DNA of 20,404 nucleotides. It comes from a virus. Each line of letters opens with the position of its first letter. The stretch's first letter is position 1. The stretch is taken from positions 1-20,404 of IMG/VR virus record IMGVR_UViG_3300008448_000859; one strand, given 5' to 3'. The notes below the pieces were generated by a model that saw only the letters and a program-made list of their open reading frames with translations, had not been told where the DNA came from and made no database searches. The position numbers and the translations under genes are program-made. Shown here piece after piece: positions 4,194 to 19,248 of the stretch.

Positions 4194-4635
4194 CGTCTAC
4201 CTCCTCTGCAATCAGAGTATATGATCCGCCCCCCAAGATCCCAGCCATTGCGACTGCGAGACCACGGTCTGCGTTCTTTTCCGTTCTTCGGTCCAACATT
4301 TCTTGGGCCCGGAGTCCCTCCGACAGAGTCGGCATGAGATCCCCGTTTTCAACCATCTTAAATACGTATCCGCTTACCAGCTTGGCAAGATCGCTACTTG
4401 TAGATTCGATCTTTACTGCCTGCTGCACCTTTCTGGCTACCTCTTTACGAACATTCATGTGCTGGTCGGTAAGGTGCTGGCGCTTGTGGTTTCCCAATGT
4501 GATCCGGCTGATGTACGAGTTTTCGGCCTTTAGCCAATCGCTGATCTTGACGTCCGGCATTCCCTCGGTCATCTTTCGGTTGATGACGTCTACTAGCGGA
4601 CTTGAGCAGACTGCGCATTTACTCAGAAGTTTCAT
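4177..4635 (-). CDS. Cys/His DNA-binding-like protein, possible small terminase subunit
   Basis: The 152-residue product opens with CAVCSS at residues 8-13. It then has VDVINRKMTEG, a possible helix-turn-helix (PDVKISDWLK...YISRITLGNH) and KRQHL, so Cys2 and His residues could bind zinc. This N-terminal layout (CxxC, 'vd.iN..l..G....I...l', then H..H) resembles a widespread phage and bacterial zinc/HTH module used by small terminases and other site-specific DNA binders. The C-terminus is helical (EGLRAQEMLDRRTEKNADRG). A small-terminase role is inferred from the late operon and from the absence of another candidate near TerL. The ATG at 4635 shares one base with the fibre stop (TGATG), with only a weak ribosome site, so coupled translation is likely. 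Confidence 0.5.
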   Translation of the reverse strand: MKLLSKCAVCSSPLVDVINRKMTEGMPDVKISDWLKAENSYISRITLGNHKRQHLTDQHMNVRKEVARKVQQAVKIESTSSDLAKLVSGYVFKMVENGDLMPTLSEGLRAQEMLDRRTEKNADRGLAVAMAGILGGGSYTLIAEEVDDEQGT

Positions 4636-5732
4636 CAGGTCTTGATAATAAAGTTTAGCAACGTAGCCTTAGGGGTTAGTGTACCACCGCTGGAGGATGA
4701 GGTGACGGATGTGGTGCCAAGAGATGTCACCCCGCCACTTACGGTGTGGGTAAGGTTGGCGCTTTCTGCTGCGGACGTCACAGCTGCTGGGTTTGTTGCA
4801 TGGGTATGGGTTGATGTCCCAACATTAACAGATACTCCGGTACCAGCATACGTGATAACACCAACCGTAGCGCTAGGTGAACCAGAAGTTGTACTGGCAA
4901 CGTCAACAGAGTGGGTATGGTCTCCGTGGGTCGCTACTGCAATGGTGTCCGCATGTCCGTGGGCGATGTTAGTTGTGTGATCGTGGGCTGTAGCGTTTGC
5001 CGTGTTTGGAGCAAAGGTACCAGAGTTGTTGGCTAGCGCTGCAACTGTAGCTGCTCCTGCAGCGAAGCGATCCCGCATGTCCGGTAGGGTAAACGTTCCG
5101 GTTGTAACACCGAAAACTGCCGCTAGGGATGGGTATGTTGACTGGTTGTATGTTGCCCCGTCCAGGAAAAGCCAGTCTGCTGGAGCAGTAGCAGTTGGCC
5201 ACATTACGATAGATCCTGTTGGGCCTGTTGGGCCCATCGGTCCTGTTGCTCCAGTAGCTCCGTTAGTGCCATTTGTGCCATTGGTTCCAGCTGGTCCAGT
5301 AGGACCGGTTGGACCGGGTACCGTGCTATCTGCACCGGCTGGTCCCGTAGGGCCAGTAGCTCCAGTAGCTCCGTTAGTCCCGTTGGTGCCTGCTGCGCCA
5401 GTAGCGCCAGTAGCGCCAGTTGGGCCGGCTGGGCCGGCTGGGCCGGCTGGGCCAGTTGCACCAGTGGCACCCGTGGCACCTGTTGGGCCCGCTGGCCCAG
5501 TAGGACCGGCTGGGCCGACTGCCCCTCCTCCAGCCTCTAGCGCTGTAATCCTGGCACGAATGGTATTGCCCTCATCCTGATCAACCCACTCAAAAGTAGG
5601 CTCGACCAGCATTGCGGACTGGAGTTCGTTGTTGTATTCATCAGGAACCTCGAACACGGTGAGAGCTGGCCCCTCAAATAGGAGGCCATTCCACCTGAGT
5701 GAGATCGGTCTGTTGAACCTGAACTTTGCCAT
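4635..5732 (-). CDS. Collagen-like tail fibre with tail-collar domain
   Basis: The 365-residue product has three parts. Residues ~1-70 are a compact N-terminal domain ending in a short coiled stretch ([13 protein letters not shown]). Residues ~73-173 are uninterrupted-looking collagen Gly-X-Y triplets (GPAGPTG, GATGATG, GTNGTNG), with one break around ADSTVPG. Residues ~174-230 match the phage tail collar fold ([20 protein letters not shown], then [22 protein letters not shown]). The last part is Ser/Thr/His-rich with HxH-type pairs (AHDH, AHGH, THTH), a pattern seen in metal-bound trimeric fibre shafts, and ends in LLNFIIK. The protein should form a trimer that contacts the host surface. AAGGAG precedes the ATG, and a promoter-like element lies immediately upstream. 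Confidence 0.9.
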
Positions 5733-9100: not shown

Positions 9101-12100
9101 CGCTTGATTCAAATACTTCTGCTGCGTCATATGTAGTTCGCGCAGGGGAGAACTTAGTACCGCCGGTTGGCTGCATCGTTGACCTAGCAATATCAACCAG
9201 GCTTTGTTCGTCCGGATCAAGGACGGTCCGCGCTCGATGTGGTGTTCCAGCCTCAATCTCCGCATCAATCTGTCGGATAAGAGCCCTTCCCCTTTCTAGC
9301 TCAGCGTCGGTGATCCCGCCGTGCATAAGGCCAAAGAACTGGTCGCCGCTGGCAACTCTACCAGGCCTATCAATGCCCTGCTCTACGCCAAGGAGGTCCC
9401 CAAGAACCCATCGTCGTGGCTCATCTGGGGTGTCGATGTCTGCCAGATACCTATCTGCAAGGGTACCTAGGTTTGGGAAGTTACCGTCAGAGTCAGCAAC
9501 AAGGCCGGCAGCAATGCCTTCAGGCCAGTCTGTTGCAGATGCAGACACGTCTACATCTCGAACCCTGAGTACCGCCCTGCCTTCGTGAGTGAATGGCGTA
9601 AGGTCTCCTGGGAGCACTTCATCAACACCAAAGTCCGATCCTCTTTTAGCCTTTCCCTCACCACCCTGGCTAAACGTTTTCTGCGTGCCTGTGTCGATGT
9701 AGATGACATCCCCGTTCTCGTCCATGGTTGGAATTAGCTTCCTGCTAGGGATTCCGTCTCTATCGCGCACGGTAATTCGCACAAGCTCGCCGGTTTTCGC
9801 AAAAGACAGTGGGATCATGGCCACTGTTCCGCGTCTACCCATAGGATCAACAAGTGGGAGCGTGTGCTTGACTGCAGGGAATACGTGTGGGTCGATATCA
9901 ATGAGCAATTTCGAGAATACGTCAGGCCCAGCGATTGAGGAGATGTCAACCTCGCTACCAATGGCGAATGGGCTAGTTACCGAGCCTCCATTTGTGCGGA
10001 TAACCTGAACTAGAGGGCTATCGGCAAGCAAGACAACAATGCCGTCTTCACCAATGAGGCGAGAGGTACCCTTCCCGTCAGAAACTATGAAATCAGGGAA
10101 CTTATTTCGATCAATACGGGCAATAACTACCTGCTCTTTTGGCAAAAGAAGGCGTCGTCGGGTTACTTCTGACTCTACCACCTTCCTGTCTGTGGTATAC
10201 GTAATGTTGTCCCCAACACCAATGTCGCTATCAAGCGTTAACCCGTCATCCCAGGTCTTGCTGCTGTCGTCAAAGCCATTTTGGGCCAAATGGTCCTTCA
10301 GGGCCTTGATAATACTGCCCTCTAGCTTAAAGTCCCGCTTGATTTTGATACCTGACCTGTGGTGGATGCCGGTCGTTGGGTCAGTTGTAAGGATAAACCC
10401 GATTGCAGCCCTAGTCGAGTCAGGGTCTGGGTTCATTGTGTTCACAAACGAAGGAACATCGATGCCCTGTACGTCAACCTCCTGCCACCTTGGGTCGATA
10501 AGTCCCGCAAGGTCAAGAGCATACCGTCGACGGCTCCTTGTTTCGTAGTTAAGTACGTTGTTTGTTGTGAAATACTGGTCGTTTGCAGTTAGTGGAGACC
10601 ACGATGGGCGAGGAATCTCGCCAGACTCAGCGATAACTGTCTTAATATCTTCCCCAGTGAGCTCTTTAACGCGAGCAGCAAGCTCATCTGTAATAAACTC
10701 TAGGTTATCTACGAACGTTTGAACCGGCTTACCTGTCGGTTTTCGTGGGTCGAAGTTGATTGTTCGCTTCTCCGTGATGTCGGAGTCTAGCTCTGTGATT
10801 AGCTTGGTGAGCACCTCCAGGGCCGGGGCCACTTCTGGGCGGCGCAAGGCTCCTCCGCCCTTCAGCTCTTGAATAGTTTGAGTGATTCTTTCAATAATGC
10901 GCTGCTGGATCCCTACGTTTTCCCCTTCTCGCGTGCCGAAGGATAGTGGAGTCCAGTCAGAATCGCGTGTCGCTGGGATTTCACGACGGATACCCCTAAT
11001 GGTTTCGTCTTCAATGCCAATGCTACGAAGGATCGCGTCAAACCTCTTGCGTACCTCTTTTAGCCTTGGGTTCTTTTCGAACTCTGCCTCGCTAACAAAG
11101 CCAATGCCGTAGTGCAACAGTCGAATGCGCATGGCAAGAGACCCTCTGCTTACGCTCTCGGGGTCATTAAGCATGTTCCTGGCGTTGATTCCCTGAACGC
11201 CACTCTCACCTGAGATGTATCGTTCGTACAGGTTATACAGGTCGTCTTCCGGTGTGAGGGTACCGTACGTAAGCCGCTCGTACAAGATCTGCTGAAGATC
11301 CTTAATGCGTTTCCGCCGTGCGATTTCTTTAGCAATCTTAATGTTGTCTTCGTTTTCTGATTCGGACCTTGTGGGCCTATTGATCTCTTCGTCTGTCCTG
11401 GCCGTTCGGCCACCGAAGTACCTCGCCTCAGCCCGGTCAATGCTGGCGTCCTCACGCGTACCGGACACAGCTGCGTCAGCTTCCTGAAGCATGGCCAGCT
11501 CGTCAGGTGAGAGACCAGATTGACCGAGGGTCGACGCCGTTGTTGTTTTTTGGGGGGTCTCAGGCGCAGGTTCAGGGGTAGGAGCTTCTGGTACCGTGGC
11601 CTCAACACCGGAACTACCGCTGCGCCATGCCTGAAGCTGCTCTGGGGTGAGTGAGGCCTCCCAGGCATCTAGCTCTGGGATTTGCCCAGTAAACGGGAAG
11701 TCTCCACCATTGAGATACCCGTTTTTGTCTAGCCCATACTCTCTGGCCTTGGGGCTATTTAGTACCTCTTGTGGAATCTGGGGGCGGACTACCGGGCCAG
11801 CAGCCTCCGGGAGGGGTGTAGGAGCCACGGAGGCAAGAGTTTCCTGTGCCGGGGGTGTCTCCACCGCTCCTGGGGCCATTTCCGGTACTGGGGCCTGCGT
11901 AGCGGCCTCTTGTGCTTGGATTACTGCCGGGCTGTTCTGGGCCGTGAGCTTCTCTGTTAGGAACCCCTCGATAGCCTTGGCCGGGATCTTGCCCTTGGTG
12001 GAGTTAGAGATGTTTTTGGATAGGTCAATGACCTTCTGGTTGAGGCCCATAGCGTCGCCGCCAGCAGCCATGCGGTCACGGATGTCTCGGAAGGCGCTGA

Positions 12101-12353
12101 CGAACGCTGGGTTGCCCTTGATGACCTTGGCAATCTCGGCCTCGAATGCTACCTCGGCGGCCTGACCGGCTGACTGTCCTACCTCAGGGGGAACAGGAGT
12201 AGCCCCAGCTGCCGGTGCGGAGGGTGCGGCAGCAGCTGGGGTCTTAGGTGCCTTGGGCGCAGCCTTACCTTCGATCTGCTCGTCAACGACCTGGTTGGCG
12301 TTCTTCAGACCTTCTTCTAGCTGCTTCTGGATCTTGGTGTTCTTCTTTGCCAT
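6168..12353 (-). CDS. Giant (2061-residue) putative virion/DNA-ejection protein
   Basis: The product is the first of the leftward late operon. The first ~280 residues are Ala/Pro-rich and low complexity, apart from a small folded-looking patch (KNGYLNGGDFPFTGQIPEL). The long middle (~290-1900) is mixed alpha/beta and charged, without any protease, lysozyme or polymerase motif I can name. The last ~150 residues (from ~1912) hold Gly/Ala-rich hydrophobic stretches (GGFIGGGLLTLGMAGL, then IGGFGGAAAGAVAG and FAGGMAGSVAGSAAADAL at ~1977-2021). These look like a glycine-zipper membrane-inserting region, followed by an acidic tail. Size, operon position and the membrane-like end resemble internal virion or ejection proteins of podoviruses. 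A polyvalent effector delivered with the DNA is an alternative. The start is ATG 12353 with AAAGGAAG before it. Confidence 0.6.
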   Translation of the reverse strand: MAKKNTKIQKQLEEGLKNANQVVDEQIEGKAAPKAPKTPAAAAPSAPAAGATPVPPEVGQSAGQAAEVAFEAEIAKVIKGNPAFVSAFRDIRDRMAAGGDAMGLNQKVIDLSKNISNSTKGKIPAKAIEGFLTEKLTAQNSPAVIQAQEAATQAPVPEMAPGAVETPPAQETLASVAPTPLPEAAGPVVRPQIPQEVLNSPKAREYGLDKNGYLNGGDFPFTGQIPELDAWEASLTPEQLQAWRSGSSGVEATVPEAPTPEPAPETPQKTTTASTLGQSGLSPDELAMLQEADAAVSGTREDASIDRAEARYFGGRTARTDEEINRPTRSESENEDNIKIAKEIARRKRIKDLQQILYERLTYGTLTPEDDLYNLYERYISGESGVQGINARNMLNDPESVSRGSLAMRIRLLHYGIGFVSEAEFEKNPRLKEVRKRFDAILRSIGIEDETIRGIRREIPATRDSDWTPLSFGTREGENVGIQQRIIERITQTIQELKGGGALRRPEVAPALEVLTKLITELDSDITEKRTINFDPRKPTGKPVQTFVDNLEFITDELAARVKELTGEDIKTVIAESGEIPRPSWSPLTANDQYFTTNNVLNYETRSRRRYALDLAGLIDPRWQEVDVQGIDVPSFVNTMNPDPDSTRAAIGFILTTDPTTGIHHRSGIKIKRDFKLEGSIIKALKDHLAQNGFDDSSKTWDDGLTLDSDIGVGDNITYTTDRKVVESEVTRRRLLLPKEQVVIARIDRNKFPDFIVSDGKGTSRLIGEDGIVVLLADSPLVQVIRTNGGSVTSPFAIGSEVDISSIAGPDVFSKLLIDIDPHVFPAVKHTLPLVDPMGRRGTVAMIPLSFAKTGELVRITVRDRDGIPSRKLIPTMDENGDVIYIDTGTQKTFSQGGEGKAKRGSDFGVDEVLPGDLTPFTHEGRAVLRVRDVDVSASATDWPEGIAAGLVADSDGNFPNLGTLADRYLADIDTPDEPRRWVLGDLLGVEQGIDRPGRVASGDQFFGLMHGGITDAELERGRALIRQIDAEIEAGTPHRARTVLDPDEQSLVDIARSTMQPTGGTKFSPARTTYDAAEVFESSEDGWQVKHRERREALVRTPEEGDAVLNSVGDGEILLSSEPITADVEKKLRVLKADLLTLLKVRATKAFWDSKNSKSGERKVEEIVDFAPRIAAIRAELVRVGVTEAAYQQYLIDAASSVAPFDNPEDEAFFRQEMEKEVRRITMSEVTPVTSSGGYGVSRGFGPGNSTFLSPEDLGLDSLNRLDQIAYSIARTMTMDHLAARKGAPQTSMESLFSELPDDSTGTEDNELTDAIKDMGSDVEKIVNLAEDDPEALRVTPETKKLAAELRKTKDPMFRSLIVALMENGSDMRAVTDSAYPDAFAKAVLQQDKQKPKGEREFKPRGSKDSITRGLLPDGSKDPYDIRMQELWYEYASNNAENIGRKIGKTIKRVMVPSDTETSLAVGLSPAMRPSVELRGLLSGLTKEQIQTVAQRAYTAFSIFAARDDAGDGWVRFINNVLHADEVSRLISSEWEASGRRMILVNNAMVLTEGGEIPDLKTQSGGDIGILTSDEVDRIRESSDLGNGYVQFAEDNQMNFIVIKERGPAGIKYQTVYIVKLNDKQRKNPTMALDFSDVEELTMKYGYQPFADEMQPSQTEDRIKTFLKETGGDRIFEVVMDPAGTGRYTLGIKADRDNTFDFMIKEMERLSDSQRIKKYKMIIDALVKYKFYQDINQMAIDSGAEAPFADITLKRVMVEVESILKDAKGVTTFGDTSGPFGIRVAMNLKNKDLPSDSIIPRILTEETIDGPMTVEERIARAIAKIDDAPAVGEDPMLDAALEERTIRNKEITDELTKPRLGGPGGSRRRVETDSTKALARTARAMLRSGKLNDLLNSGPSKINNALNSRTGGFIGGGLLTLGMAGLTQGMRDKEREDMVKTGLAFEALGAVSPALSNAAALGFTAMNKGDMLRTLINIIGGFGGAAAGAVAGTAVLPVGGSFAGGMAGSVAGSAAADALYSQFAGGGSTGPRVPYNTATLNEQAVPEEEDPFNVFKGLGG

Positions 12354-12569: not shown

Positions 12570-12578
12570 CCCTCCCTT

Positions 12579-12605
12579 ACGGGGTAGGGTTGTTCCCTAG
12601 CCCGT
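12579..12605 (+). repeat. Intergenic hairpin cassette copy 1
   Basis: Arms ACGGGGTAGGG and CCCTAGCCCGT pair with one mismatch around the loop TTGTT. They are followed by CCCGTAAAA, the conserved 3' flank of this repeat family. A second hairpin (12610-12641) follows and then the first rightward gene. Confidence 0.65.
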
Positions 12606-12609
12606 AAAA

Positions 12610-12641
12610 CCCGCACAAACCTGGTCACCCAGGTGTGCGGG
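12610..12641 (+). repeat. Second, bulged hairpin of cassette 1
   Basis: CCCGCAC pairs with GTGCGGG (outer stem) and ACCTGG with CCAGGT (inner stem). The 5' side carries a two-base AA bulge and the loop is TCAC. It ends 46 bases before the ATG at 12687. Like cassettes 6, 8 and 9, this leader places a tetraloop-type hairpin between the primary hairpin and the ribosome site. Confidence 0.6.
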
Positions 12642-12686
12642 CTAAACGCCGAGCTGCTACTTGGCGCAAGGAAGGGGGTGGTGCTT

Positions 12687-12890
12687 ATGACGAACGTGTT
12701 CAAGCAGGTCTGCGAGATCTGCGACTTCACGTTCACCTCAACGGAGAAGCGAGAGCTTTGCTCTCTCTGTCTCCGCAAGGTGAATACGGAGGAGTCGCCT
12801 CGCCGGCCTGGTTGCGACTGTGATCAGTCGGGCAGCGGCTTCAGCCTCTGCTCGTACTGCTACACAGAGCAGGTTGGTGGAGACGCCTAG
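12687..12890 (+). CDS. Zinc-ribbon miniprotein (67 aa)
   Basis: The product has four Cys pairs: CEIC, CSLC, CDC and CSYC. This is enough for two treble-clef or zinc-ribbon sites, with charged linkers (STEKRE, NTEESPRRP). The start ATG 12687 is chosen over an in-frame ATG at 12633 because GAAGGGGG lies at the same distance as the AGAAAGGGGGTGAT sites of the neighbours, and because the upstream stretch is structured leader. It is the first gene of the rightward block. The family is unknown; DNA, RNA or protein binding through zinc is inferred. Confidence 0.75.
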   Translation: MTNVFKQVCEICDFTFTSTEKRELCSLCLRKVNTEESPRRPGCDCDQSGSGFSLCSYCYTEQVGGDA

Positions 12891-12910
12891 GGCCTAGCAG
12901 GGCCATTAGC

Positions 12911-12937
12911 ACGGGTGGGGGGTGTACCCTCACCCGT
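12911..12937 (+). repeat. Intergenic hairpin cassette copy 2
   Basis: ACGGGTGGGGG pairs with CCCTCACCCGT over 11 positions (one G-T) around the loop GTGTA. It is followed by AGAAAGGAGGTAGATC and the ATG at 12954. This is the strongest copy. Confidence 0.75.
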
Positions 12938-12953
12938 AGAAAGGAGGTAGATC

Positions 12954-13154
12954 ATGGGTATATGGTATGAGAAGTGCGACATGTGTGGCGAGCTGTTCGA
13001 TCTCGCTGTCATGGTGCGGTATCGCGGATACGACCGCAATACCGGAGAACCAGAGCCGGACAATATCTGGCGCTGGGTAGATAAGAAGTGCCACGCGTGG
13101 GCCGAGAAGTACGGCCAGGATCTCGCGGATGAGCACAACAGAATCAATAGCTGA
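12954..13154 (+). CDS. Small zinc-finger-like protein (66 aa)
   Basis: The product starts MGIWYEKCDMCGELFDL and later has KKCHAWAEKYGQ, giving a CxxC pair plus CH as possible zinc ligands. YxKCxxCxxxFDL is shared with the 44-residue protein at 18951, suggesting a paralogue. A strong AGAAAGGAGGT precedes the ATG. The TGA stop lies inside the next hairpin cassette, so a ribosome terminating here would disturb that structure. Function unknown. Confidence 0.75.
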   Translation: MGIWYEKCDMCGELFDLAVMVRYRGYDRNTGEPEPDNIWRWVDKKCHAWAEKYGQDLADEHNRINS

Positions 13155-13168
13155 GGGATGTACCCTCA
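13152..13168 (+). repeat. Intergenic hairpin cassette copy 3
   Basis: TGAGGG and CCCTCA form a six-pair stem with loop ATGTA. The first three bases are the stop codon of the upstream gene. CCGTAGAAAGGAGGTGAT follows, then the ATG at 13192. Confidence 0.7.
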
Positions 13169-13191
13169 ACCGTAGAAAGGAGGTGATATAG

Positions 13192-13467
13192 ATGCCACAC
13201 TTTATGTGCACAGTGTGCAACAGGCGCAGGCCTACCCCAATCGTTGAAGGCAACGGACTCGAGCACGAAGAGCTCGGTTGGGTATGCCTGGACTGCTTGC
13301 ACCACTACACGTTTGAAGCTTTGCGAATGATCGCAAAGCTCAACACGTGCAGCAACTGCAGCATCAAAGGTACCGATATCGACGGTGGTTGGTTCAACCA
13401 GGAGAAGGATTGGTACTGCGATCTCTGCACATACGAGCTCCACGGGCCTTCGGCAGGCAAGGAGTAG
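13192..13467 (+). CDS. Four-CxxC zinc-ribbon protein (91 aa)
   Basis: Cys pairs CTVC, CLDC, CSNC and CDLC are spaced so that pairs 1-2 and 3-4 could each form one zinc ribbon. The segment between them (HHYTFEALRMIAKLN) looks helical. The first half (CTVCNRRRPTPIVEGNGLEHEELGWVCLDC) resembles phage and bacterial treble-clef fingers. The ribosome site AGAAAGGAGGTGAT before the ATG is a 14-base match to the inferred 16S tail. Function unknown; a nucleic-acid-binding or host-modulating role is only inferred. Confidence 0.78.
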   Translation: MPHFMCTVCNRRRPTPIVEGNGLEHEELGWVCLDCLHHYTFEALRMIAKLNTCSNCSIKGTDIDGGWFNQEKDWYCDLCTYELHGPSAGKE

Positions 13468-13472
13468 CAAGC

Positions 13473-13505
13473 TCAATAGCTAAGGGCTGCGCCCTTATCT
13501 ATTGA
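13473..13505 (+). repeat. Intergenic hairpin cassette copy 4
   Basis: An inner stem TAAGGG/CCCTTA with loop CTGCG is extended by an outer stem TCAATAG/CTATTGA across a C-T mismatch. It begins 5 bases after the upstream stop. TTTAGAAAGGGGGTGAT follows and then the ATG at 13529. Loop and outer stem diverge from the consensus while the shape is kept. Confidence 0.65.
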
Positions 13506-13528
13506 ACTTTAGAAAGGGGGTGATACAG

Positions 13529-13759
13529 ATGTCGATTCCGAATCCCACAATCGAGCAATGCGAGCATTGCATGGGAGCAATCGAGACCGTAGGGTTTGAC
13601 TACGTAGTCTTGATTGGCGGAAGCAACGAGGCTAGTCCCGAGGCTTTCTACCATCCGTGCTGCGCGCAGATCGTTACAAAACGATATGTGCGGGACTGCT
13701 GCGAGAAGCATTATCTCGAGGGCAGAAAGGCTCGAGGTGTAGACGAAGAAGTAGAGTGA
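13529..13759 (+). CDS. Cys-rich miniprotein (76 aa)
   Basis: The product is MSIPNPTIEQCEHCMGAI and onward, with CEHC, then HPCC and DCCEKH as further zinc-ligand candidates, and a charged C-terminus. The start is ATG 13529, preceded by AGAAAGGGGGTGAT. An upstream in-frame ATG at 13502 lies in the hairpin cassette and is not used. The TGA stop lies inside the next hairpin. Function unknown. Confidence 0.72.
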   Translation: MSIPNPTIEQCEHCMGAIETVGFDYVVLIGGSNEASPEAFYHPCCAQIVTKRYVRDCCEKHYLEGRKARGVDEEVE

Positions 13760-13774
13760 GGGATGTACCCTCAC
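13756..13774 (+). repeat. Intergenic hairpin cassette copy 5
   Basis: GTGAGGG/CCCTCAC, a perfect seven-pair stem with loop ATGTA. The stop codon of the preceding gene is within the 5' arm. CCGTAGAAAGGGGGTGAT follows, then the ATG at 13797. Confidence 0.72.
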
Positions 13775-13796
13775 CCGTAGAAAGGGGGTGATATAG

Positions 13797-13871
13797 ATGA
13801 AGGACTTCATCGCAGCGGCAGTGTTCGTTGTGATCTTGTGGTTCTGCCTGGTGGTATTCTGGCAGATCTGA
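13797..13871 (+). CDS. 24-residue single-span membrane microprotein
   Basis: The short ORF encodes MKDFIAAAVFVVILWFCLVVF and WQI, essentially one hydrophobic helix. It carries the same cassette and strong AGAAAGGGGGTGAT as its neighbours, which is the main reason to call it real. The stop TGA abuts the next hairpin. Possible roles include membrane modulation or superinfection exclusion; neither is shown. Confidence 0.6.
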   Translation: MKDFIAAAVFVVILWFCLVVFWQI

Positions 13872-13913
13872 GGGTAGGGACTATCCCTATCCCGTAAAAT
13901 GGGGGAGACCCCA
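13872..13913 (+). repeat. Intergenic hairpin cassette copy 6 (two hairpins)
   Basis: The first stem is GGGTAGGG/CCCTATCCC with a one-base bulge and loop ACTAT (13872-13893), followed by CGTAAAA. The second is TGGGG-GAGA-CCCCA (13900-13913), with a GNRA-type tetraloop. AGGAAGGAG and the ATG at 13927 follow. Confidence 0.65.
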
Positions 13914-13926
13914 GGAAGGAGACATT

Positions 13927-14265
13927 ATGCCAGTGGCATATGTCAAGCGGGCCCTAGTTCAGGGCGATATGGAGCACGAAGGGGCGAAAGCCGCCCCGAA
14001 GGGCTTCAATGGGTCTTGGGATATCAGGTATGATTCCAAGACCGGCGCCCCTATGCGCCTGTTCACGATTGAGGAGCGCTCAATCGATGAGACAGGCAAG
14101 ACCAAGGTGACCGGTTATTTCAACTGCGTCGCCAAGGGTGAGCTGATGGAGCAGATCGATGCTCTTCAGTGGTCTGTGGTTGAGATCGTAGCAGAGCTAC
14201 GCCACAACCGGGACACCAAGTACCTCCAGTTCGAGGTTGTAAAGGTCTCCGCAGTAGAGGCCTAA
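13927..14265 (+). CDS. Duplicated phage protein, copy A (112 aa)
   Basis: The product begins MPVAYVKRALVQGDMEHEG, contains KGFNGSWDIRYDSKTG and FTIEERSIDETGKTKVTGYFN, and ends YLQFEVVKVSAVEA. It is about 79% identical (89 of 112 positions by hand alignment) to the gene at 14584, and both have exactly 112 residues. Alternating beta-rich segments suggest a small beta-barrel or OB-like fold, but I recognise no family. GGAAGGAGACATT precedes the ATG. The most divergent region is ~70-92. A terminator-like hairpin follows 17 bases after the stop. Confidence 0.82.
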   Translation: MPVAYVKRALVQGDMEHEGAKAAPKGFNGSWDIRYDSKTGAPMRLFTIEERSIDETGKTKVTGYFNCVAKGELMEQIDALQWSVVEIVAELRHNRDTKYLQFEVVKVSAVEA

Positions 14266-14282
14266 GCGACCCCAGGTAAGAA

Positions 14283-14308
14283 GGGTGAGGGTAGCAATAC
14301 CCTCACCC
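14283..14308 (+). terminator. Terminator-like hairpin after copy A
   Basis: GGGTGAGGGTA (14283-14293) and TACCCTCACCC (14298-14308) pair perfectly over 11 bases around GCAA. The tail is CTTATCT, only weakly T-rich. Confidence 0.6.
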
Positions 14309-14421
14309 CTTATCTGGATCCGGTAAGGTCCCTGCCCTGGCCCGTAATAGCGGGTCAAGCTTTCCCAACCTGGCGAATCTATATCGAGCTTGAAAAACTT
14401 GACGGATGGGTTGGATACGAA

Positions 14422-14450
14422 AGCATACTCATACCGGCATGCCTTGTCAA
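14422..14450 (-). promoter_or_regulatory. Leftward sigma-70-like promoter candidate
   Basis: On the minus strand TTGACA (14450-14445) is followed after exactly 17 bases by TATGCT (14427-14422). The -35 is perfect and the -10 matches 4 of 6. Transcription would run antisense to copy A and the zinc-ribbon genes, so it may be fortuitous. Confidence 0.3.
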
Positions 14451-14499
14451 GTGATAAGGTAACAATGGGGTAAGCACGAGCGGTAGCGTATTACCCTTG

Positions 14500-14569
14500 G
14501 GGTGGGGTGGATCCCTCGCCCGTAAAAAACCTGCCTCATGGCAGGCTATTGTAGTCCCGCTAACGCGGG
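14500..14569 (+). repeat. Intergenic hairpin cassette copy 8 (three hairpins)
   Basis: GGGTGGGG pairs with CCTCGCCC (14500-14521) around a six-base loop and is followed by CGTAAAA. Then come CCTGCC-TCAT-GGCAGG (14530-14545) and CCCGC-TAAC-GCGGG (14556-14569). The ribosome site GAAGGAG lies at once downstream. It is the most elaborate copy and precedes paralogue B. Confidence 0.65.
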
Positions 14570-14583
14570 GGAAGGAGAAGCAA

Positions 14584-14922
14584 ATGCCAACAGCATTTGT
14601 GAAGCGTGCCCTAGTTCAGGGAGATATGGATCATGAGGGTGCCAAGCATGCGCCCAAGGGATTCAACGGGAGTTGGGATGTCAGGTACAACTCCAAGACT
14701 GGAAAGCCGATGAGGCTCTTCACAATCGAGGAGCGCAGCTCAGACGAGACTGGCAAGACCAAGGTTACAGGTTACTTCAACTGCGTAGCAGCAGAGGAAG
14801 TAATGGAAGCAATCGAAGCAGTTCAGTGGACAGAGGTAAGCCTAGTCACTGAACTCAGGTTCAACCGGGATACCAAGTACCTTCAGCTAGAGGTAGTAAA
14901 GGTTATCCCAGTAGAGGCATAG
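14584..14922 (+). CDS. Duplicated phage protein, copy B (112 aa)
   Basis: This is a paralogue of the 13927 gene with the same length and no gaps. The N-terminal 69 residues are nearly unchanged (KRALVQGDMDHEGAK, GFNGSWDVRY), while the 70-92 segment has diverged. The ATG at 14584 is chosen over an upstream in-frame start at 14497, because GAAGGAG and the hairpins lie between them and the paralogue starts at the equivalent codon. Third-position A is commoner than in copy A, so the pair has drifted or one copy came from a related phage. Function unknown; high expression is inferred from the leader. Confidence 0.82.
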   Translation: MPTAFVKRALVQGDMDHEGAKHAPKGFNGSWDVRYNSKTGKPMRLFTIEERSSDETGKTKVTGYFNCVAAEEVMEAIEAVQWTEVSLVTELRFNRDTKYLQLEVVKVIPVEA

Positions 14923-14956
14923 GGTTCACCTTAGAACCCAGTATCAACCGGATAAG

Positions 14957-14988
14957 TGGCATCCCGCGCAAGCGGGGTGCCATTTATT
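14957..14988 (+). terminator. Intrinsic terminator after copy B
   Basis: TGGCATCCCGC (14957-14967) pairs with GCGGGGTGCCA (14972-14982) over 11 positions with one G-T, loop GCAA, followed by TTTATT. Confidence 0.7.
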
Positions 14989-15007
14989 CCCAATGCCAGG
15001 CTTGAAC

Positions 15008-15018
15008 AACTTGGCGAA
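15008..15018 (+). repeat. AACTTGGCGAA dispersed motif, copy 1
   Basis: This is an exact 11-base word shared with 16297-16307 and 19672-19682. Context CTTGAAC-AACTTGGCGAA-TG, 20 bases after a terminator and 20 bases before the GTG start at 15038. Too close to the ribosome site to be an ordinary -35. Confidence 0.55.
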
Positions 15019-15037
15019 TGTGATAAGGAGATGACAA

Positions 15038-15226
15038 GTGCCTAAGTGTCCATGGTGTGAGCACATTAGCGAGCTAAAGTACCAAGGCTTCTGCTCAGCC
15101 GACTGCCTAGCGGCAGCAGGCCATGAGTATGAGCATTTCTTAGACAAGTTCAACGACTACATGGCAGGATACCCAGTAACATTCGAGAAGATGAAGAAGC
15201 ACCCTAAGAAGGAGACAGACCAATGA
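15038..15226 (+). CDS. Zinc-finger-like miniprotein (62 aa)
   Basis: The product starts MPKCPWCEHISELKYQGFCSADC: CPWC and CSADC with about 12 residues between, a pattern of small zinc-binding phage proteins. A helical charged tail ends KKHPKKETDQ. The start is GTG 15038, with AAGGAG 7 bases upstream. The TGA stop overlaps the next ATG (ATGA). It is the first of five closely packed genes (to 16229). Function unknown. Confidence 0.75.
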   Translation: MPKCPWCEHISELKYQGFCSADCLAAAGHEYEHFLDKFNDYMAGYPVTFEKMKKHPKKETDQ

Positions 15227-15450
15227 TCTGCCAAGCTATGAACGACAAGCGGTTATGTACCTATGATGGTATCCGTACCGTCAAAGGTGGCAAGCTGCTA
15301 TGTATAGTACATATAGACTCGTTCTTCAAGGGTGAACGGATCAAGTGGGCGCCGAAGCGCCTAATCTCTTGGGAAGTTGAGCGCCGCGCATCGGCAGCAG
15401 TCGAACGCCACCGCATCAACAAACTAAATGAGGAGTATAACCGTGCCTAA
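15223..15450 (+). CDS. Cys/His miniprotein (75 aa)
   Basis: The N-terminal half MICQAMNDKRLCTYDG and LLCIVHIDSFF supplies C3, C12, C27 and H30 as a plausible zinc site. The C-terminal half is a basic amphipathic helix (WEVERRASAAVERHRINKL). Its ATG overlaps the preceding stop by 4 bases, with AAGGAG upstream. Zinc-dependent nucleic-acid binding is possible; no family recognised. Confidence 0.72.
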   Translation: MICQAMNDKRLCTYDGIRTVKGGKLLCIVHIDSFFKGERIKWAPKRLISWEVERRASAAVERHRINKLNEEYNRA

Positions 15451-15631
15451 TGAACCGTATGTAACAATCAGTTGTATCAACTGCGGCAAGCTAAGAGTAT
15501 ATAGAGATTACTTTGGGAACTGGATTAGAATAGTAGAGTTGCCTAAGTTCTGCGATGATTGCGGAGAAGCATACCTCGCAAGCTATATAGAGTATGTAGT
15601 TCCAACATCAGAGAAAGGAGGTAATCAATAA
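15443..15631 (+). CDS. Zinc-ribbon miniprotein (62 aa)
   Basis: CINCGK near residue 11 and CDDCG near residue 38 form a two-CxxC zinc ribbon separated by a beta-rich YRDYFGNWIRI segment. The start GTG 15443 is preferred over ATG 15428: GAGGAG (15430-15435) lies 7 bases before the GTG, and the ATG would overlap this ribosome site. The gene overlaps its upstream neighbour by 8 bases. Its stop TAA shares one base with the next ATG. Function unknown. Confidence 0.72.
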   Translation: MPNEPYVTISCINCGKLRVYRDYFGNWIRIVELPKFCDDCGEAYLASYIEYVVPTSEKGGNQ

Positions 15632-15738
15632 TGGATTTAGCAGCATTCCTATGGACAGTAATCGCGTCTATCATAGGCACTGTCACTGGCATCATCGTAT
15701 TGTCAGTGCTAGATAAAGCCTACAATGTATTCAAGTAA
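15631..15738 (+). CDS. 35-residue membrane microprotein
   Basis: The product MDLAAFLWTVIASIIG-TVTGIIVLSVLDKAYNVFK is one hydrophobic span with a short basic cytoplasmic-type end. AGAAAGGAGGT lies ~10 bases before the ATG, and TAATG couples it to the upstream gene. The downstream RadC-like gene begins 11 bases later. Strong ribosome site and tight packing support it. Role unknown. Confidence 0.62.
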   Translation: MDLAAFLWTVIASIIGTVTGIIVLSVLDKAYNVFK

Positions 15739-15749
15739 GGAGAAAGATA

Positions 15750-16229
15750 ATGTTGTATCAGAAGTATGAGTTCACAATCACAAGGAAGGAACTCAACCCA
15801 AGAGACATGCGGATTGAGACCCCAGCCAAAGCAGTAGAATACTTCAGAGAGTTCGCATATGAGGCTAGCCAAGAGTCATTGTTCGTAGTTGTATTGGATG
15901 GCCGCAACAATCTGATTGGTATCCAAGAGGTATACCGTGGCACGGCAACTGGTACAAGCGTCCGCATTGCGGAGCTATTCACACCGGTATTGCTAGCTCA
16001 TGGTGTTGGTATGGTTGTAGTCCACAACCACCCAAGTGGTGACCATCATCAGTCAGATGAGGATGTCAGACTAACAAGTGACCTAGTAAAAGCTGCTAGG
16101 ATTATGGACATTGAGATGCTTGATCATCTTGTCATTGGCAAAGACAAGCATACTAGCATCAGGTCTATTATGCCTGGCATGTGGGATCCATTCGATAACA
16201 TCGAGGAAGAAACCATCTTCGAAGGATAA
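15750..16229 (+). CDS. radC: RadC-like JAMM/MPN-domain protein
   Basis: The 159-residue product carries a canonical JAMM signature: E42, then H92-N-H94-PSGDHHQ-S102-x-x-D105 (HxHx7SxxD), in the usual RadC context VHNHPSG...S..D..LT..L..A. DHLVIG follows. The N-terminal helix-hairpin-helix of full RadC is absent, so it is the MPN domain alone. RadC proteins are common in mobile elements; despite the name, a role in DNA repair is not established, and JAMM domains are zinc hydrolases. TAAGGAG precedes the ATG. A hairpin follows after 15 bases. Domain call strong, role unknown. Confidence 0.9.
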   Translation: MLYQKYEFTITRKELNPRDMRIETPAKAVEYFREFAYEASQESLFVVVLDGRNNLIGIQEVYRGTATGTSVRIAELFTPVLLAHGVGMVVVHNHPSGDHHQSDEDVRLTSDLVKAARIMDIEMLDHLVIGKDKHTSIRSIMPGMWDPFDNIEEETIFEG

Positions 16230-16244
16230 CCAAAGGAGCAGTGA

Positions 16245-16270
16245 TGGGGTAGCCAGAGTAGGCTACCCCA
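16245..16270 (+). terminator. Terminator-like hairpin after the RadC-like gene
   Basis: TGGGGTAGCC and GGCTACCCCA form a perfect 10-pair stem with loop AGAGTA. Only two Ts follow directly (TTACTCT), so termination may be partial. Confidence 0.55.
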
Positions 16271-16296
16271 TTACTCTCAGTAAAAGCCGACTGAAT

Positions 16297-16307
16297 AACT
16301 TGGCGAA
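16297..16307 (+). repeat. AACTTGGCGAA dispersed motif, copy 2
   Basis: Exact 11-base word in the context CTGAAT-AACTTGGCGAA-AGC, 27 bases after the hairpin at 16245-16270 and before cassette copy 9. Confidence 0.55.
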
Positions 16308-16339
16308 AGCGCAAGCGATCGGCGCGTGCTCTTGGTTGT

Positions 16340-16385
16340 GGCGGGGGGTGTTCCCTCGCCCGTAGTAGAAGCTGCCTTAAGGCAG
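16340..16385 (+). repeat. Intergenic hairpin cassette copy 9 (two hairpins)
   Basis: GGCGGGGG pairs with CCCTCGCC (one G-T) around loop GTGTT (16340-16360), followed by CGTAGTAGAA. Then a perfect palindrome CTGCCTTAAGGCAG (16372-16385) runs straight into AAGGAGG and the ATG at 16398. It is about 1.8 kb from the other copies. Confidence 0.7.
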
Positions 16386-16397
16386 AAGGAGGAATCA

Positions 16398-16808
16398 ATG
16401 GACTTACCAAACAGGGTACAAGTAGAACTTGAGTTCGGATTCAGCGAGGAAAAAGCACCGGATGCTCTTGCAATCCTTATCTCAGGGTACTATATGTTCA
16501 AGTCTCTAGGAGATGCACCTCGCAGGTTCCGAGAGAACTATCCAGAAGTATTCAACTCTTCTGAAGAGTCGATGATGGCTGATGGTTCAACCAGGATTGA
16601 GGCCGAGGCGCAAACAATCGCAGCGCTTGAGCAGTACTTCGATCTTCTTGGCAAGATGGTATACATGCTAGGTTATGAGCTAGCAGAAGTAATGGGTGTA
16701 GACTATCCAAGAGATGAAGACATCTCAGGACATCGCTTAGTAGTAGACGGTATGAATAAAGAGGAGGTGATGAATGAACTAAACCGCATCATGAATATCA
16801 ATAACTAA
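16398..16808 (+). CDS. Hypothetical phage protein (136 aa)
   Basis: The product opens MDLPNRVQVELEFGFSEEKAP. It has a likely helix (DALAILISGYYMFKSLG), a second (TIAALEQYFDLLGKMVYMLGYELAEVMG) and an acidic, helical C-terminus. It is probably a soluble alpha-helical protein; no known motif. The start is ATG 16398, directly after AAGGAGG; the longer in-frame version from 16326 would read through the hairpin cassette and is rejected. First gene of a unit running to 17917. Confidence 0.72.
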   Translation: MDLPNRVQVELEFGFSEEKAPDALAILISGYYMFKSLGDAPRRFRENYPEVFNSSEESMMADGSTRIEAEAQTIAALEQYFDLLGKMVYMLGYELAEVMGVDYPRDEDISGHRLVVDGMNKEEVMNELNRIMNINN

Positions 16809-16817
16809 GGAGGAAGA

Positions 16818-17036
16818 ATGGAAGAAGATAACATTTGTGATGGAGTTAATCATCACGTGAAGGTAGATTTTATTACCTTCATCTCACACCCGGACAGTGT
16901 CACCCGTCAGTGGGTCAATGGAACAACTGATACTGTGATCAATACGATCAAACAGTATCGAGCGGCCAAAGAACCAGACGTTGACATGTTCATTGATTAT
17001 TGCTGCGAAGCATGTAAGGAGGCAAGTAATGGCTGA
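16818..17036 (+). CDS. Hypothetical small protein (72 aa)
   Basis: The product is acidic (MEEDNICDGVNHHVKVDFITF) with C7, a HH pair and a C-terminal CCEACKEA; these Cys and His could bind a metal. The middle has a helix (TVINTIKQYRAAKE). TAAGGAGGAAG precedes the ATG. The end overlaps the next start by 8 bases. Not recognised. Confidence 0.68.
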   Translation: MEEDNICDGVNHHVKVDFITFISHPDSVTRQWVNGTTDTVINTIKQYRAAKEPDVDMFIDYCCEACKEASNG

Positions 17037-17466
17037 CATCAGCGACTTCAAAGAGCAGCTAGAGTCTGCTCAGTCTAGCATTGAATCCGCAGGGTACAAT
17101 GCAGACCAGGCAGCAGATGATGCAAGGGCTGCAGTTAGTAATGCAGACCAAGCAATCTCTATCCTTAGTAGTCTCATCGATGAGGTTGAAGGTATCATGG
17201 GTTACAGCAAGCATGATCTTGAGGTAGCAATGCGCCACCTCGGTGTCATCAACAAGCTGCAAGCTATGTTCTACAATCGACTCGACAATGTGATTGATGG
17301 CAATTACATTGAGGATAAGATGAAGTACAATAACTTCATCTCATTCCTAGAGATGATCACTGAGTCCGAGAATGGCCAGCTTGTATGGGAAAAAGCATAC
17401 AGACTGGAAGCATACTATGTCGACTCAACATATGGATATAAGACTGTAAAGTCAGAGGAGGTCTAA
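17029..17466 (+). CDS. Coiled-coil-like hypothetical protein (145 aa)
   Basis: Residues ~5-55 are an Ala/Ser/Asp/Gln-rich heptad-like helix (FKEQLESAQSSIESAG, QAADDARAAVSNADQAISILSSL). A helical domain with several aromatics follows (NKLQAMFYNRLDNV, WEKAYRLEAYYVDSTYGY). No enzyme motif. The ATG at 17029 with AAGGAGG 8 bases upstream is preferred over an in-frame ATG at 16981 that lacks a ribosome site and overlaps the upstream gene by more. Probably oligomeric; function unknown. Confidence 0.72.
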   Translation: MADISDFKEQLESAQSSIESAGYNADQAADDARAAVSNADQAISILSSLIDEVEGIMGYSKHDLEVAMRHLGVINKLQAMFYNRLDNVIDGNYIEDKMKYNNFISFLEMITESENGQLVWEKAYRLEAYYVDSTYGYKTVKSEEV

Positions 17467-17467
17467 C

Positions 17468-17917
17468 ATGGCAACCAATAAGACAGAGAAGTGTGGAGCA
17501 CCTAAGCTCAAGGAACTGAAGGCTGAGTTCAATCAGCAGGTAAGTATCCAGGTAGATAGCGCAACCGTTGTTAGCTTGATCATGCAGGCGTCATTGCCTG
17601 ATCTGGCCAAGCGCGTTGCCAAAGGTAACGGCTACAGCAACAGCGTCAACAGTGCAGTCAAAGCATTGAATGCAGCAACAGCGCTTGATCTCAAGGTAAC
17701 GGAAATCAATGATGCCTGGGATGGCTATCATGGATTCAAGGATACCCTAGAAAACGAGGGTATCCTGCGCCAGTGGCGAGCGCAGCGACCAGGCTGTGAC
17801 TTCACTGAGGGTGTAGACACATCTGATTTGTACGAGAGTACAGTCGCTGAGGTTCACATCACCTTCAGCAAGAAGTTGAAGGACAAGAAGTTCTTGGCAT
17901 CAAAGGGTGTCAAGTAA
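17468..17917 (+). CDS. Hypothetical phage protein (149 aa)
   Basis: The product is MATNKTEKCGAPKLKELKAEF and onward. A helical N-terminal half is followed by a mixed region with DAWDGYHGFKDTLENEGILRQWRAQ and a beta-like AEVHITFSKKLKDKKF end. GGAGGTCTAAC precedes the ATG. It starts 1 base after the upstream stop, so the two are probably co-translated. No family recognised. Confidence 0.7.
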   Translation: MATNKTEKCGAPKLKELKAEFNQQVSIQVDSATVVSLIMQASLPDLAKRVAKGNGYSNSVNSAVKALNAATALDLKVTEINDAWDGYHGFKDTLENEGILRQWRAQRPGCDFTEGVDTSDLYESTVAEVHITFSKKLKDKKFLASKGVK

Positions 17918-17934
17918 TAGCTAAGTAGGGTGCA

Positions 17935-17971
17935 GCCGGATAGGTAGAGGTGTGGTCACCGCCTATCCGGC
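17935..17971 (+). repeat. Long two-stage hairpin in the leader of the 17994 gene
   Basis: GCCGGATAGG (17935-17944) pairs with CCTATCCGGC (17962-17971). Inside, GGTG-TGGT-CACC forms a second stem. No T-run follows, and the ribosome site AGAAGGAG lies 11 bases downstream. It is unlike the cassette family in sequence. A weak terminator or a leader control element. Confidence 0.55.
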
Positions 17972-17993
17972 ACACGCTATAGAAGGAGTAGTT

Positions 17994-18347
17994 ATGTGCA
18001 AAGAATACAATGGCTGGGCTAACTGGGAAACATGGAATGTAGGCCTATGGATTGGTGAGGTAGATGGACTACCCGATATGATCTTCGAGCAAGCAAAGAA
18101 AGAAGTAGAAGAACAGTTCAACGATGACGAGTTCGACAAGTGGACAGCAACTAGATCATTGGCTAAGTACCTAGAAGAACTATGTCATGAAGTGTTTGAC
18201 ACTGAAGATTCATCGCCAACACAGGGGCCATTAGCAGATGCTATTGGTATGTATTACGCACAGGTACAGTGGCACGACATCGCAGAGAACTACATCGATG
18301 AAGCAGTGCAAGAGCTAGGGATTAACCCATCAGCAATCGTAGTGTAG
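17994..18347 (+). CDS. Phage protein with NGWANWETWNVGLW motif (117 aa; DUF7249-like)
   Basis: The N-terminus EYNGWANWETWNVGLWIGE matches a motif ('NGxxNxETWNVxLW') that I recall in many phage early proteins, possibly Pfam DUF7249. A helical, acidic remainder follows (EQAKKEVEEQF, SLAKYLEELCHEVF, WHDIAENYIDEAV). Its function in any phage is unknown to me. The start ATG 17994 has AGAAGGAG upstream; an in-frame ATG at 17952 lies inside the hairpin and is rejected. The gene at 18356 follows after 8 bases. Confidence 0.75.
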   Translation: MCKEYNGWANWETWNVGLWIGEVDGLPDMIFEQAKKEVEEQFNDDEFDKWTATRSLAKYLEELCHEVFDTEDSSPTQGPLADAIGMYYAQVQWHDIAENYIDEAVQELGINPSAIVV

Positions 18348-18355
18348 GAGGAATC

Positions 18356-18958
18356 ATGAACAACGTTATAGAAGCTGGAGTAACAGAGTCAGGAATCTAT
18401 TGGGAAACAAATATGGATAATGACTATGAACTAGAAAGAGACTTCTGGATCATTGCATCACGGGGTACCGGCAGGTACCTTCCAGTAGATGAAGTATGCG
18501 ATAGCATGGATGAGTTCGATGCCGCACTGAAGTCGGACACTATCGTGTACTACCAGCCACTGTTCATGCTGGCACACAGCGGTGTAAGCATCAGCCTTGG
18601 TGGGTACAATGACCCATGGGACAGCGGCCAATGCGGATTTGCTTGCATCACAAGAGCTGATGCAGACAACTGGGGCATCCTACCTCACGAGTACAAGGCA
18701 TTCCTAGAATCAGCAGTGCTGAACTATGATGCTGGCCTTAGAGGTGAGGTGTTCAGGTTCGACATCTATCTACAGAACAAGTGCAAGGAGTGCGGATCCG
18801 CTAGAACTGAGACATTAGATGGGGTAGGTGGATACGTGTACCCAGGAGGGTACCGCAAGTTCTTCGAAGAAGTAGTAGAGCCAGCCATTGCTGAGTGCGA
18901 GCGGCAGCTAGCTGAGGCAGAGCATCAGTCAGAGAAAGGAGTTAAGTCAGATGATTAG
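18356..18958 (+). CDS. Phage orphan with SGVSISLGGYNDPWDSGQCG motif (200 aa)
   Basis: The core around residues 75-95 (HSGVSISL, then DPWDSGQCGFACIT) and the later YDAGLRGEVFRFDIY belong to a protein type seen in many phages ('SGI.ms...F.cPWDSGq.Gf', '.yl.G.vy.y'), whose function I do not know. A single CKEC lies near residue 142. The C-terminus is an acidic coiled helix (EPAIAECERQLAEAEH). GGAGGAATC precedes the ATG. The end overlaps the next gene by 8 bases. Confidence 0.75.
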   Translation: MNNVIEAGVTESGIYWETNMDNDYELERDFWIIASRGTGRYLPVDEVCDSMDEFDAALKSDTIVYYQPLFMLAHSGVSISLGGYNDPWDSGQCGFACITRADADNWGILPHEYKAFLESAVLNYDAGLRGEVFRFDIYLQNKCKECGSARTETLDGVGGYVYPGGYRKFFEEVVEPAIAECERQLAEAEHQSEKGVKSDD

Positions 18959-19085
18959 TTGGCCCTATCTAGAAACACTAGGTTACGCCAAGTGTCCAGA
19001 GTGCAACAGAGTATTCGACCTAGACATAGAAGAGCAAGCAGCAGAGTGGTACTATGGCCACGACTGCTTCTTAGAGGAGGAGTAA
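18951..19085 (+). CDS. 44-residue zinc-finger miniprotein
   Basis: The product starts MISWPYLETLGYAKCPECNRVFDL and ends with GHDCFLEEE: CPEC plus HDC gives a complete zinc site in 44 residues. YAKCPECNRVFDL resembles YEKCDMCGELFDL of the 12954 gene. AGAAAGGAG lies ~11 bases before the ATG. The gene overlaps its upstream neighbour by 8 bases, and the next gene starts one base after its stop. Confidence 0.65.
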   Translation: MISWPYLETLGYAKCPECNRVFDLDIEEQAAEWYYGHDCFLEEE

Positions 19086-19086
19086 A

Positions 19087-19248
19087 ATGTGGATGCCAAC
19101 TAGCCGAGTATGTTGGGAGTGTGACCAGGCACTAGCAGAGTACGACGAGGGTCACATCGTTACTGATTTCTCTGCGTCAGCAGAAGACTGGAAGATGTAT
19201 TGTGAAGATTGCTGGCAGAGAATGTTGAAAGATAAGGAGGGCTCATGA
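19087..19248 (+). CDS. 53-residue zinc-ribbon miniprotein
   Basis: The product has CWEC near residue 9 and CEDC near residue 39, about 26 residues apart, with a charged helix at the end (WQRMLKDKEGS). The spacing equals one zinc-ribbon or treble-clef unit. GAGGAGGAG precedes the ATG. Its TGA overlaps the next ATG as ATGA. Function unknown. Confidence 0.65.
   Translation: MWMPTSRVCWECDQALAEYDEGHIVTDFSASAEDWKMYCEDCWQRMLKDKEGS

Follow-up and report, generated by a model that had tools for sequence, protein, structure and literature searches.

Small Cys/His-rich genes of a virus contig as a candidate stable core set and a candidate exchangeable set with its own hairpin leader

The virus record IMGVR_UViG_3300008448_000859 (IMG/VR; 20,404 bases, the whole stretch analyzed and hereafter the window) carries structural genes on the minus strand in its left part and about 21 small rightward genes in its right part, many of them encoding Cys/His-rich miniproteins. 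We propose, at a probability of roughly 0.6, that these small proteins are zinc adaptors falling into two groups, one a stable core and the other exchangeable and preceded by a leader of its own. As Zn(II) adaptors they would include both treble-clef and ribbon-like folds. The syntenic core set (15038, 15223, 16818 and 18951, with 15443 and 19087 patchier) would be expressed from ordinary, often overlapping operon genes, and the variable set (12687, 12954, 13192 and 13529) would consist of one-gene cassettes at the head of the region, each ordered as a hairpin leader, a near-complete complement of the 16S rRNA tail and a small open reading frame (ORF). Each cassette cistron would be translated strongly and independently and could be swapped between phages. 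The Cys-rich genes, and one membrane-peptide gene of the variable block 12687-13871, are listed here (aa, amino acids; SD, Shine-Dalgarno pairing energy; rows, aligned homologues).

12687..12890, plus strand: 67-aa Cys-rich gene, CxxC-CxxC and then a C-terminal module, CDCDQSGSGFSLCxYCxxEQVGG; SD −21.7 kcal/mol
12954..13154, plus strand: 66-aa gene, KCDMC...KKCH; SD −17.6 kcal/mol; known from the window and the near-identical record L002 only
13192..13467, plus strand: 91-aa gene, four CxxC pairs (two sites); 8/8 Cys invariant in 3 rows; SD −23.5 kcal/mol
13529..13759, plus strand: 76-aa gene, CxxC...HPCC...CCxxH; 6/6 Cys invariant in 3 rows; SD −22.6 kcal/mol
13797..13871, plus strand: 24-aa membrane-peptide gene, no Cys site, same hairpin and SD leader; similar peptides in L003, L006 and L004
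15038..15226, plus strand: 62-aa core gene, CPWC...FCSxxC, predicted treble-clef-like and then a helix; AlphaFold2 predicted local distance difference test score (pLDDT) 74; weak Pfam YacG/DUF2116/MYND-like matches
15223..15450, plus strand: 75-aa core gene, C-x8-C-x14-C-x2-H and a basic helix, overlapping its neighbours; 3/3 Cys and the His invariant in 11/11
15443..15631, plus strand: 62-aa gene, CINC...CDDC; found in 3/10 kin
16818..17036, plus strand: 72-aa gene absent from the earlier reading described below, CDGxNH...YCCxxC; 4/4 Cys and the His invariant in 11/11
18951..19085, plus strand: 44-aa gene, CxxC...YGHDC; a portion of a longer protein in L010
19087..19248, plus strand: 53-aa gene, CWEC...YCEDC; 4/4 Cys invariant in 4 rows

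Scans of IMG/VR returned the near-identical L002 and ten distinct kin (L003, L004, L006, L010, L012, L013, L014, L015, L016 and L018), with the order of genes conserved between the window and the kin contigs; L005 was also found and gives matches equal to those of L004. The alignments leave out L002, L005 and L009 (protein matches the same as those of L004) and repeated cuts of single contigs. L012 and L014 begin inside the region, so that absence of a cassette gene there is uninformative, and L013 and L015 stop before 18951.

The nine Cys-rich ORFs first described in a sequence-only reading of this DNA are real genes. All nine are open at the starts given there, encoding 67, 66, 91, 76, 62, 75, 62, 44 and 53 residues, with GTG as the start codon of 15038 and 15443. 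That reading called them an array, a loose term for three blocks spread across 6.5 kb with unrelated genes between, and credited them with Cys/His sets, several with two sites; a test for two separated knuckles is positive for seven of the nine and negative for 12954 (three Cys) and 15223 (C-x8-C-x14-C-x2-H). Cys accounts for 3.0% (60/1975) of residues in the rightward proteins versus 0.22% (8/3621) in eight structural-strand proteins, and the one CxxC exception in the assembly region is CAVC in a minus-strand 152-aa protein. The 21 rightward proteins contain 17 CxxC motifs (mean 1.8, maximum 7 in 1000 shuffles of pooled residues), and nine of the 21 have two separated Cys/His knuckles (mean 1.5, maximum 5 in pooled shuffles), a group that takes in 16818 and 18356, both previously unlisted, and leaves out 12954 and 15223. 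When the proteins are shuffled individually with their own Cys content kept, CxxC is in excess at P<0.05 only for 12687, 13192, 15443 and 19087.

Invariance of Cys is a stronger argument for real genes than these single-protein counts. Across eight aligned families (3, 3, 11, 11, 11, 9, 4 and 4 rows), 35 of the window protein's 36 Cys are invariant versus 141 of 499 other residues, confirming that the Cys pairs are conserved in homologues; the sole non-invariant Cys belongs to 15038, where the L010 row barely aligns. The ratio of nonsynonymous to synonymous substitution rates (dN/dS) is 0.08-0.49 in 24/24 pairwise comparisons, values that are rough because dS is near saturation in several pairs, and constraint is weaker for 13192 and 13529 (0.25-0.49) versus 18951 (0.09) and 19087 (0.08-0.18). 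Because the Cys and His are invariant, the small proteins are predicted to bind zinc.

By tblastn, 15223 and 16818 are present in 10/10 kin, 15038 in 9/10 (L010 has in its place a Cys-rich gene of about 21-23% identity) and 15443 in 3/10; among the eight contigs reaching the locus, 18951 is present in 8/8 and 19087 in 3/8. The finger of 18951 (CEEC...YGHDC) forms the C-terminus of a 118-aa protein at L010 7257-7613, a fusion or domain split. In the eight contigs covering the head of the region, 13192 is found in L003 and L004, 13529 in L006 and L010, and 12687 and 12954 in none (0/8); over all ten kin records 12687 is likewise missing (0/10). At the place of the cassette block L006 holds another Cys gene (44 aa, MVECVICKK...), and a 95-101-aa gene without Cys pairs is common to L004 and L010 at the head of the region. 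Four sister-lineage contigs gave no match to 12687, 12954, 13192 or 13529 (head sequence read for L016 and L018), and tblastn of 12687, 13192, 13529 and 18951 against a phage collection gave no strong whole-protein match.

The C-terminal module of 12687 (CDCDQSGSGFSLCSYCYTEQVGG) is found in other phages. L028 and L029 match 20 of its 23 residues, there closing a protein whose N-terminus is unrelated, and it occurs again in L032-L035 behind a third N-terminal domain, where CxxC...CxxC precedes it as in 12687; L036 and L037, in which the match is limited to the first 9-10 residues, were not counted. Most DNA differences within the module match fall on third codon positions, which gives the module the look of an old sequence under selection. 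Its presence in two other protein contexts supports the recruitment of domains between phage lineages. The recruitment or rapid divergence earlier suggested for all nine genes is supported for the block 12687-13529, where kin differ in their sets and the 12687 module is shared, and finds no support for 15038, 15223 and 18951, genes with conserved synteny and purifying selection. A likeness of the module to the GG tail of Pup was dropped, as the tails differ (GGDA, GGE, GGES, GGEA). L028 (1566-4615) and L029 (4707-7690) represent another phage lineage with its own series of small Cys-rich genes, followed in L028 by a DnaB-like protein identified by eye.

SD energies were computed with the 16S tail GAUCACCUCCUUUCU, which we take to be that of Actinobacteria and Bacillota and which may not be that of the host. 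A 14-base duplex of −21.7 to −23.5 kcal/mol precedes 12687, 13192, 13529 and the 24-aa gene 13797; 12954 reaches −17.6 and 15631 reaches −20.8 kcal/mol. The remaining 15 of 21 starts lie between −8.1 and −13.4 kcal/mol, and the mean for 152 further ATGs of the region is −4.4. The many exceptionally strong ribosome sites of the sequence-only reading are therefore four of nine (12687, 12954, 13192 and 13529, −17.6 to −23.5), the other five lying at −8.1 to −13.0. The four kin examined follow the same pattern: 6/7 cassette starts have energies of −20.7 to −23.9 kcal/mol versus −8.6 to −15.6 for 40/40 core starts. As strong sites also occur on membrane-peptide genes and sites on core Cys genes are ordinary, the strong sites belong to the slot and not to the Cys proteins as such. 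Since the SD sites complement a 16S tail ending in UUUCU, the host may be Gram-positive, perhaps actinobacterial. A second tiny single-helix membrane peptide (35 aa, 15631-15738), with relatives in several kin, has the same strong leader type.

The hairpin of the leader has the form GGGNNRGGG, five nucleotides and then CCCTNNCCCGTA. The window contains eight copies (12595-16353, counted at CCCT), all on the coding strand and between genes, as well as a degenerate one.

12578..12606, plus strand: copy 1, ahead of 12687
12910..12938, plus strand: copy 2, ahead of 12954; minimum free energy −22.8
13146..13174, plus strand: copy 3, ahead of 13192
13475..13506, plus strand: degenerate hairpin of different sequence, ahead of 13529; outside the 34-copy alignment
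13751..13779, plus strand: copy 4, ahead of the 24-aa gene 13797
13868..13896, plus strand: copy 5, ahead of 13927
14318..14346, plus strand: copy 6, with the 3′ half (CCCTGGCCCGTA) retained and the 5′ arm not; no gene directly after
14496..14524, plus strand: copy 7, ahead of 14584
16336..16364, plus strand: copy 8, ahead of 16398

A gap-free alignment of 34 copies (28 distinct) from six records (the window, L003, L004, L006, L010 and L012), leaving out the degenerate copy at 13475 and an L004 copy at 8270, revealed invariant CCCT and CCGTA and variable inner columns. With a nine-pair stem and a five-base loop, 84.5% of cells are paired versus 45-63% in slid structures, and 16 cells are changed on both sides versus at most 7 when slid; 0/500 shuffles reach the covariation score. 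These compensatory changes are carried by only two of the nine stem pairs. CCCTNNCCCGTA occurs 6, 6, 6, 6 and 2 times in five kin records, always in a single orientation, and the records with six copies hold them in a stretch of 2.4-3.1 kb; it is found once in the record of L032 and 0 times in that of L028 and in five sister records. The hairpin is present in L012 and in those kin that carry the cassette block. When the whole collection was scanned with a tighter pattern, matches came from this lineage and from two single strays, in the unrelated contigs L020 and L022, which were taken as chance. The literature searches made did not turn up the hairpin, a negative limited to those searches.

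The alternative we take most seriously, possible but not favoured, is that the hairpins function in DNA or transcription, as repressor sites, promoters or terminators, and that the Cys genes lie among them by coincidence. It fits a 3′ half that is fixed beyond the need for pairing, copy 6, which retains that half without the 5′ arm, and the promoter activity of intergenic repeats in HF1-group haloviruses described in one part of a published account (PMC7230728). The compensatory changes speak against it, as do copies that all lie on the coding strand and nearly all before genes (the lone reverse match is copy 1 read backwards). Promoter-like sites are not above shuffles, and intrinsic terminators were dropped, there being no T-run on the coding strand. 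We infer that the hairpin acts as RNA and not DNA, with expression early and the proteins docking on nucleic acids or host proteins. The 3′ half CCCTGGCCCGTA without the 5′ arm, followed by AACCTGGCGA, recurs at window 14335-14430, L003 2039, L004 8835 and L006 1636, a conserved position past the end of the leading gene of the tandem 112-aa pair; this armless site is possibly an origin or another regulatory site.

Sister records carry GGTCTRCCCCCC instead (3, 2, 4, 4 and 4 times in five records, in one orientation; 0 in the other seven records), at places that include those before homologues of the 112-aa gene, 15038 and 16398, matching hairpins of the window. These repeats fold less clearly than the hairpin, and some likewise end in CCCGTAG; the lineage repeat, GGTCTRCCCCCC(G)TAG, lies around 7050-9500 in L013-L018. 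We offer tentatively, and regard as unlikely in full, an extension in which the hairpin and full-length anti-SD complement form a portable expression leader and the head of the region a docking strip, where cassettes for zinc adaptors and membrane miniproteins are gained, lost and traded. The leader would provide short exchange homology and strong independent translation, and the sister lineage would have evolved another hairpin for the same job.

The AlphaFold2 model of 15038 (11 rows; pLDDT 74) has a knuckle, short strands and a helix at 21-42 carrying the last Cys; that of 13192 (3 rows) has a pLDDT of 52, with residues 50-91 below 50, and its N-half combines a strand pair (22-32) with a helix beginning at the second CxxC, a treble-clef order of elements at low confidence. 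In Foldseek the 13192 model gave 36 rows, many of them LIM, ADD and PHD fingers (best E 0.42), and the 15038 model gave PNUTS:Tox4 (E 1.4) and then YacG bound to gyrase (E 4.3), none significant. VIA-align of 15038 returned PNUTS:Tox4 at Z 3.4 (root-mean-square deviation, rmsd, 3.8 over 47) and YacG at Z 2.7 (rmsd 4.1 over 42), with no row at Z 5. On these models a treble clef is the more likely fold for 15038 and 13192, and spacing suggests that 15443 and 19087 could be ribbons. The earlier label of zinc ribbon is therefore too narrow and was borne out for no gene; structure prediction did yield a treble-clef-like order of elements in the two modelled proteins, with insignificant fold matches (Foldseek E>=0.42). 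Pfam scans of 11 members of the 15038 family found YacG in 4 (best E 0.029), an MYND-like finger in 6 and DUF2116 in 1, all weak. A sequence search of the PDB gave one match for each of two Cys families, judged chance; a third family matched eukaryotic multi-finger C2H2 chains (E from 1.9e-10) over only ~9-14 residues around CxxC, which we attribute to the shared motif and not to common descent.

For the nine Cys genes no function follows from any family match. An adaptor role in contacts with nucleic acids or host proteins is our suggestion, with anti-defence one possibility among several. The core proteins might instead be nucleic-acid-binding helpers of replication or transcription, acting with the 112-aa paralogues, a RadC-like protein and a helicase. 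Core genes are syntenic with those neighbours in up to 11 records and 15223 has an invariant basic stretch, KWAPKRL; as no fold or family points to nucleic-acid binding and some proteins are acidic (18951), we consider this rather unlikely. Still less probable is host takeover or anti-defence in which every small zinc protein would inhibit a single host enzyme, as 15038 would block gyrase in the manner of YacG. The YacG matches by Pfam, Foldseek and VIA-align lean that way, and variable gene content fits an arms race, but the window's own 15038 has no Pfam match at E<=1, every fold score is insignificant and FCS-type small fingers are widespread. That the ORFs are chance Cys-rich frames is scarcely credible: several show no CxxC excess over their own Cys content when shuffled singly, but conservation, purifying selection and good ribosome sites contradict the idea for eight of them, 12954 being represented in the window and L002 alone.

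Several observations weigh against zinc adaptors in a core and a hairpin-led exchangeable set. The hairpin before 13529 is degenerate, and the leader is not Cys-specific, standing also before two membrane peptides, with the hairpin alone before 16398 and each of the 112-aa paralogues. The cassette start L006:551 reaches only −12.7 kcal/mol, and all SD strengths depend on an assumed 16S tail. The 13192 model is poor, particularly in its second half. The nine window proteins have no Pfam family at its cut-off and no PHROG below E 0.02; 12954 has no relative beyond L002, and 12687 no full-length relative.

The window is probably a fragment. Other features outside the Cys-rich genes are as follows.

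1337-2845, minus strand: terminase-like gene (PHROG match)
4635-5732, minus strand: collagen-like gene
6168-12353, minus strand: 2061-aa ORF with zero Cys and no Pfam or PHROG match
15750, plus strand: RadC-like protein (Pfam/family scan match)
17994, in the rightward part: DUF7249 protein (family scan match)
Window end, strand opposite to the rightward genes: DnaB-like helicase fragment (PHROG match)

The two tandem 112-aa paralogues (13927-14265 and 14584-14922, plus strand) are 79% identical and both retained in L003, L004, L006 and L010; sister records match them at about 25-33%, at one place. Neither has a Pfam or PHROG match, and by eye they look OB-fold/SSB-like. A direct repeat, AACTTGGCGAA, lies between genes at window 15005, 16294 and 19669. 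Rfam and tRNA scans of the window were both empty. A phage collection searched with the terminase, the 112-aa paralogue and the whole region gave no matches, and genome contigs searched with the 15223 family gave no relative.

Short, unexplained genes make up most of the non-structural gene content of phages, and a leader marking exchangeable, strongly translated genes would allow miniproteins that are candidates for action on the host to be selected from unannotated contigs. Together with the repeat that replaces it in the sister lineage, the hairpin offers a case in which a translation or processing signal specific to phages can be tested directly, and the window set would be for bacterial viruses what the CxxC microproteins are for haloviruses.

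As described in part of the published account, HF1-group haloviruses have CxxC microprotein genes that are mostly <100 aa and absent from the assembly region, and strongly conserved intergenic repeats (PMC7230728); the portion of the Hardycor1 report drawn on here makes similar remarks on CxxC genes and repeats (PMC7911831). The window likewise has CxxC genes <100 aa outside its assembly region together with intergenic repeats. It differs in that the HF1-group viruses are archaeal and their repeats are reported there as promoters, whereas the window repeats are hairpins before genes, some of which have a 14-nt anti-SD complement. In Cluster K mycobacteriophages the SAS/ESAS repeats are reported to occur only in the non-structural half, where they immediately precede some of the genes and share their orientation; roughly half have an upstream inverted repeat, with a consensus that differs between subclusters (PMC3203893). 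The window repeat is also upstream of a subset of non-structural genes in one orientation, but has another sequence, forms one hairpin with a 5-nt loop and mostly precedes Cys or membrane miniproteins. The 13-bp SAS GGGATAGGAGCCC is not found at translation starts in the window; its single match with 2 mismatches, at 9274, falls within a gene on the minus strand and is at chance level. By analogy, the hairpins appear to resemble SAS/ESAS in how they work without being a member of that family.

Among known proteins, 15038 has the CPxC...FCSxxC small-protein plan that we take to be that of the zinc protein YacG, and the two presumably differ past the second knuckle. The likeness to this DNA gyrase inhibitor (PF03884) comes without a significant score. 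FCS/MYND-like and DUF2116 treble clefs (Pfam) share with the 15038 model a knuckle, short strands and a helix that begins with the last Cys pair, but the matches are only weak. Overall, the layout resembles known phage and virus gene arrangements, and the hairpin-plus-cassette form is a new version of them.

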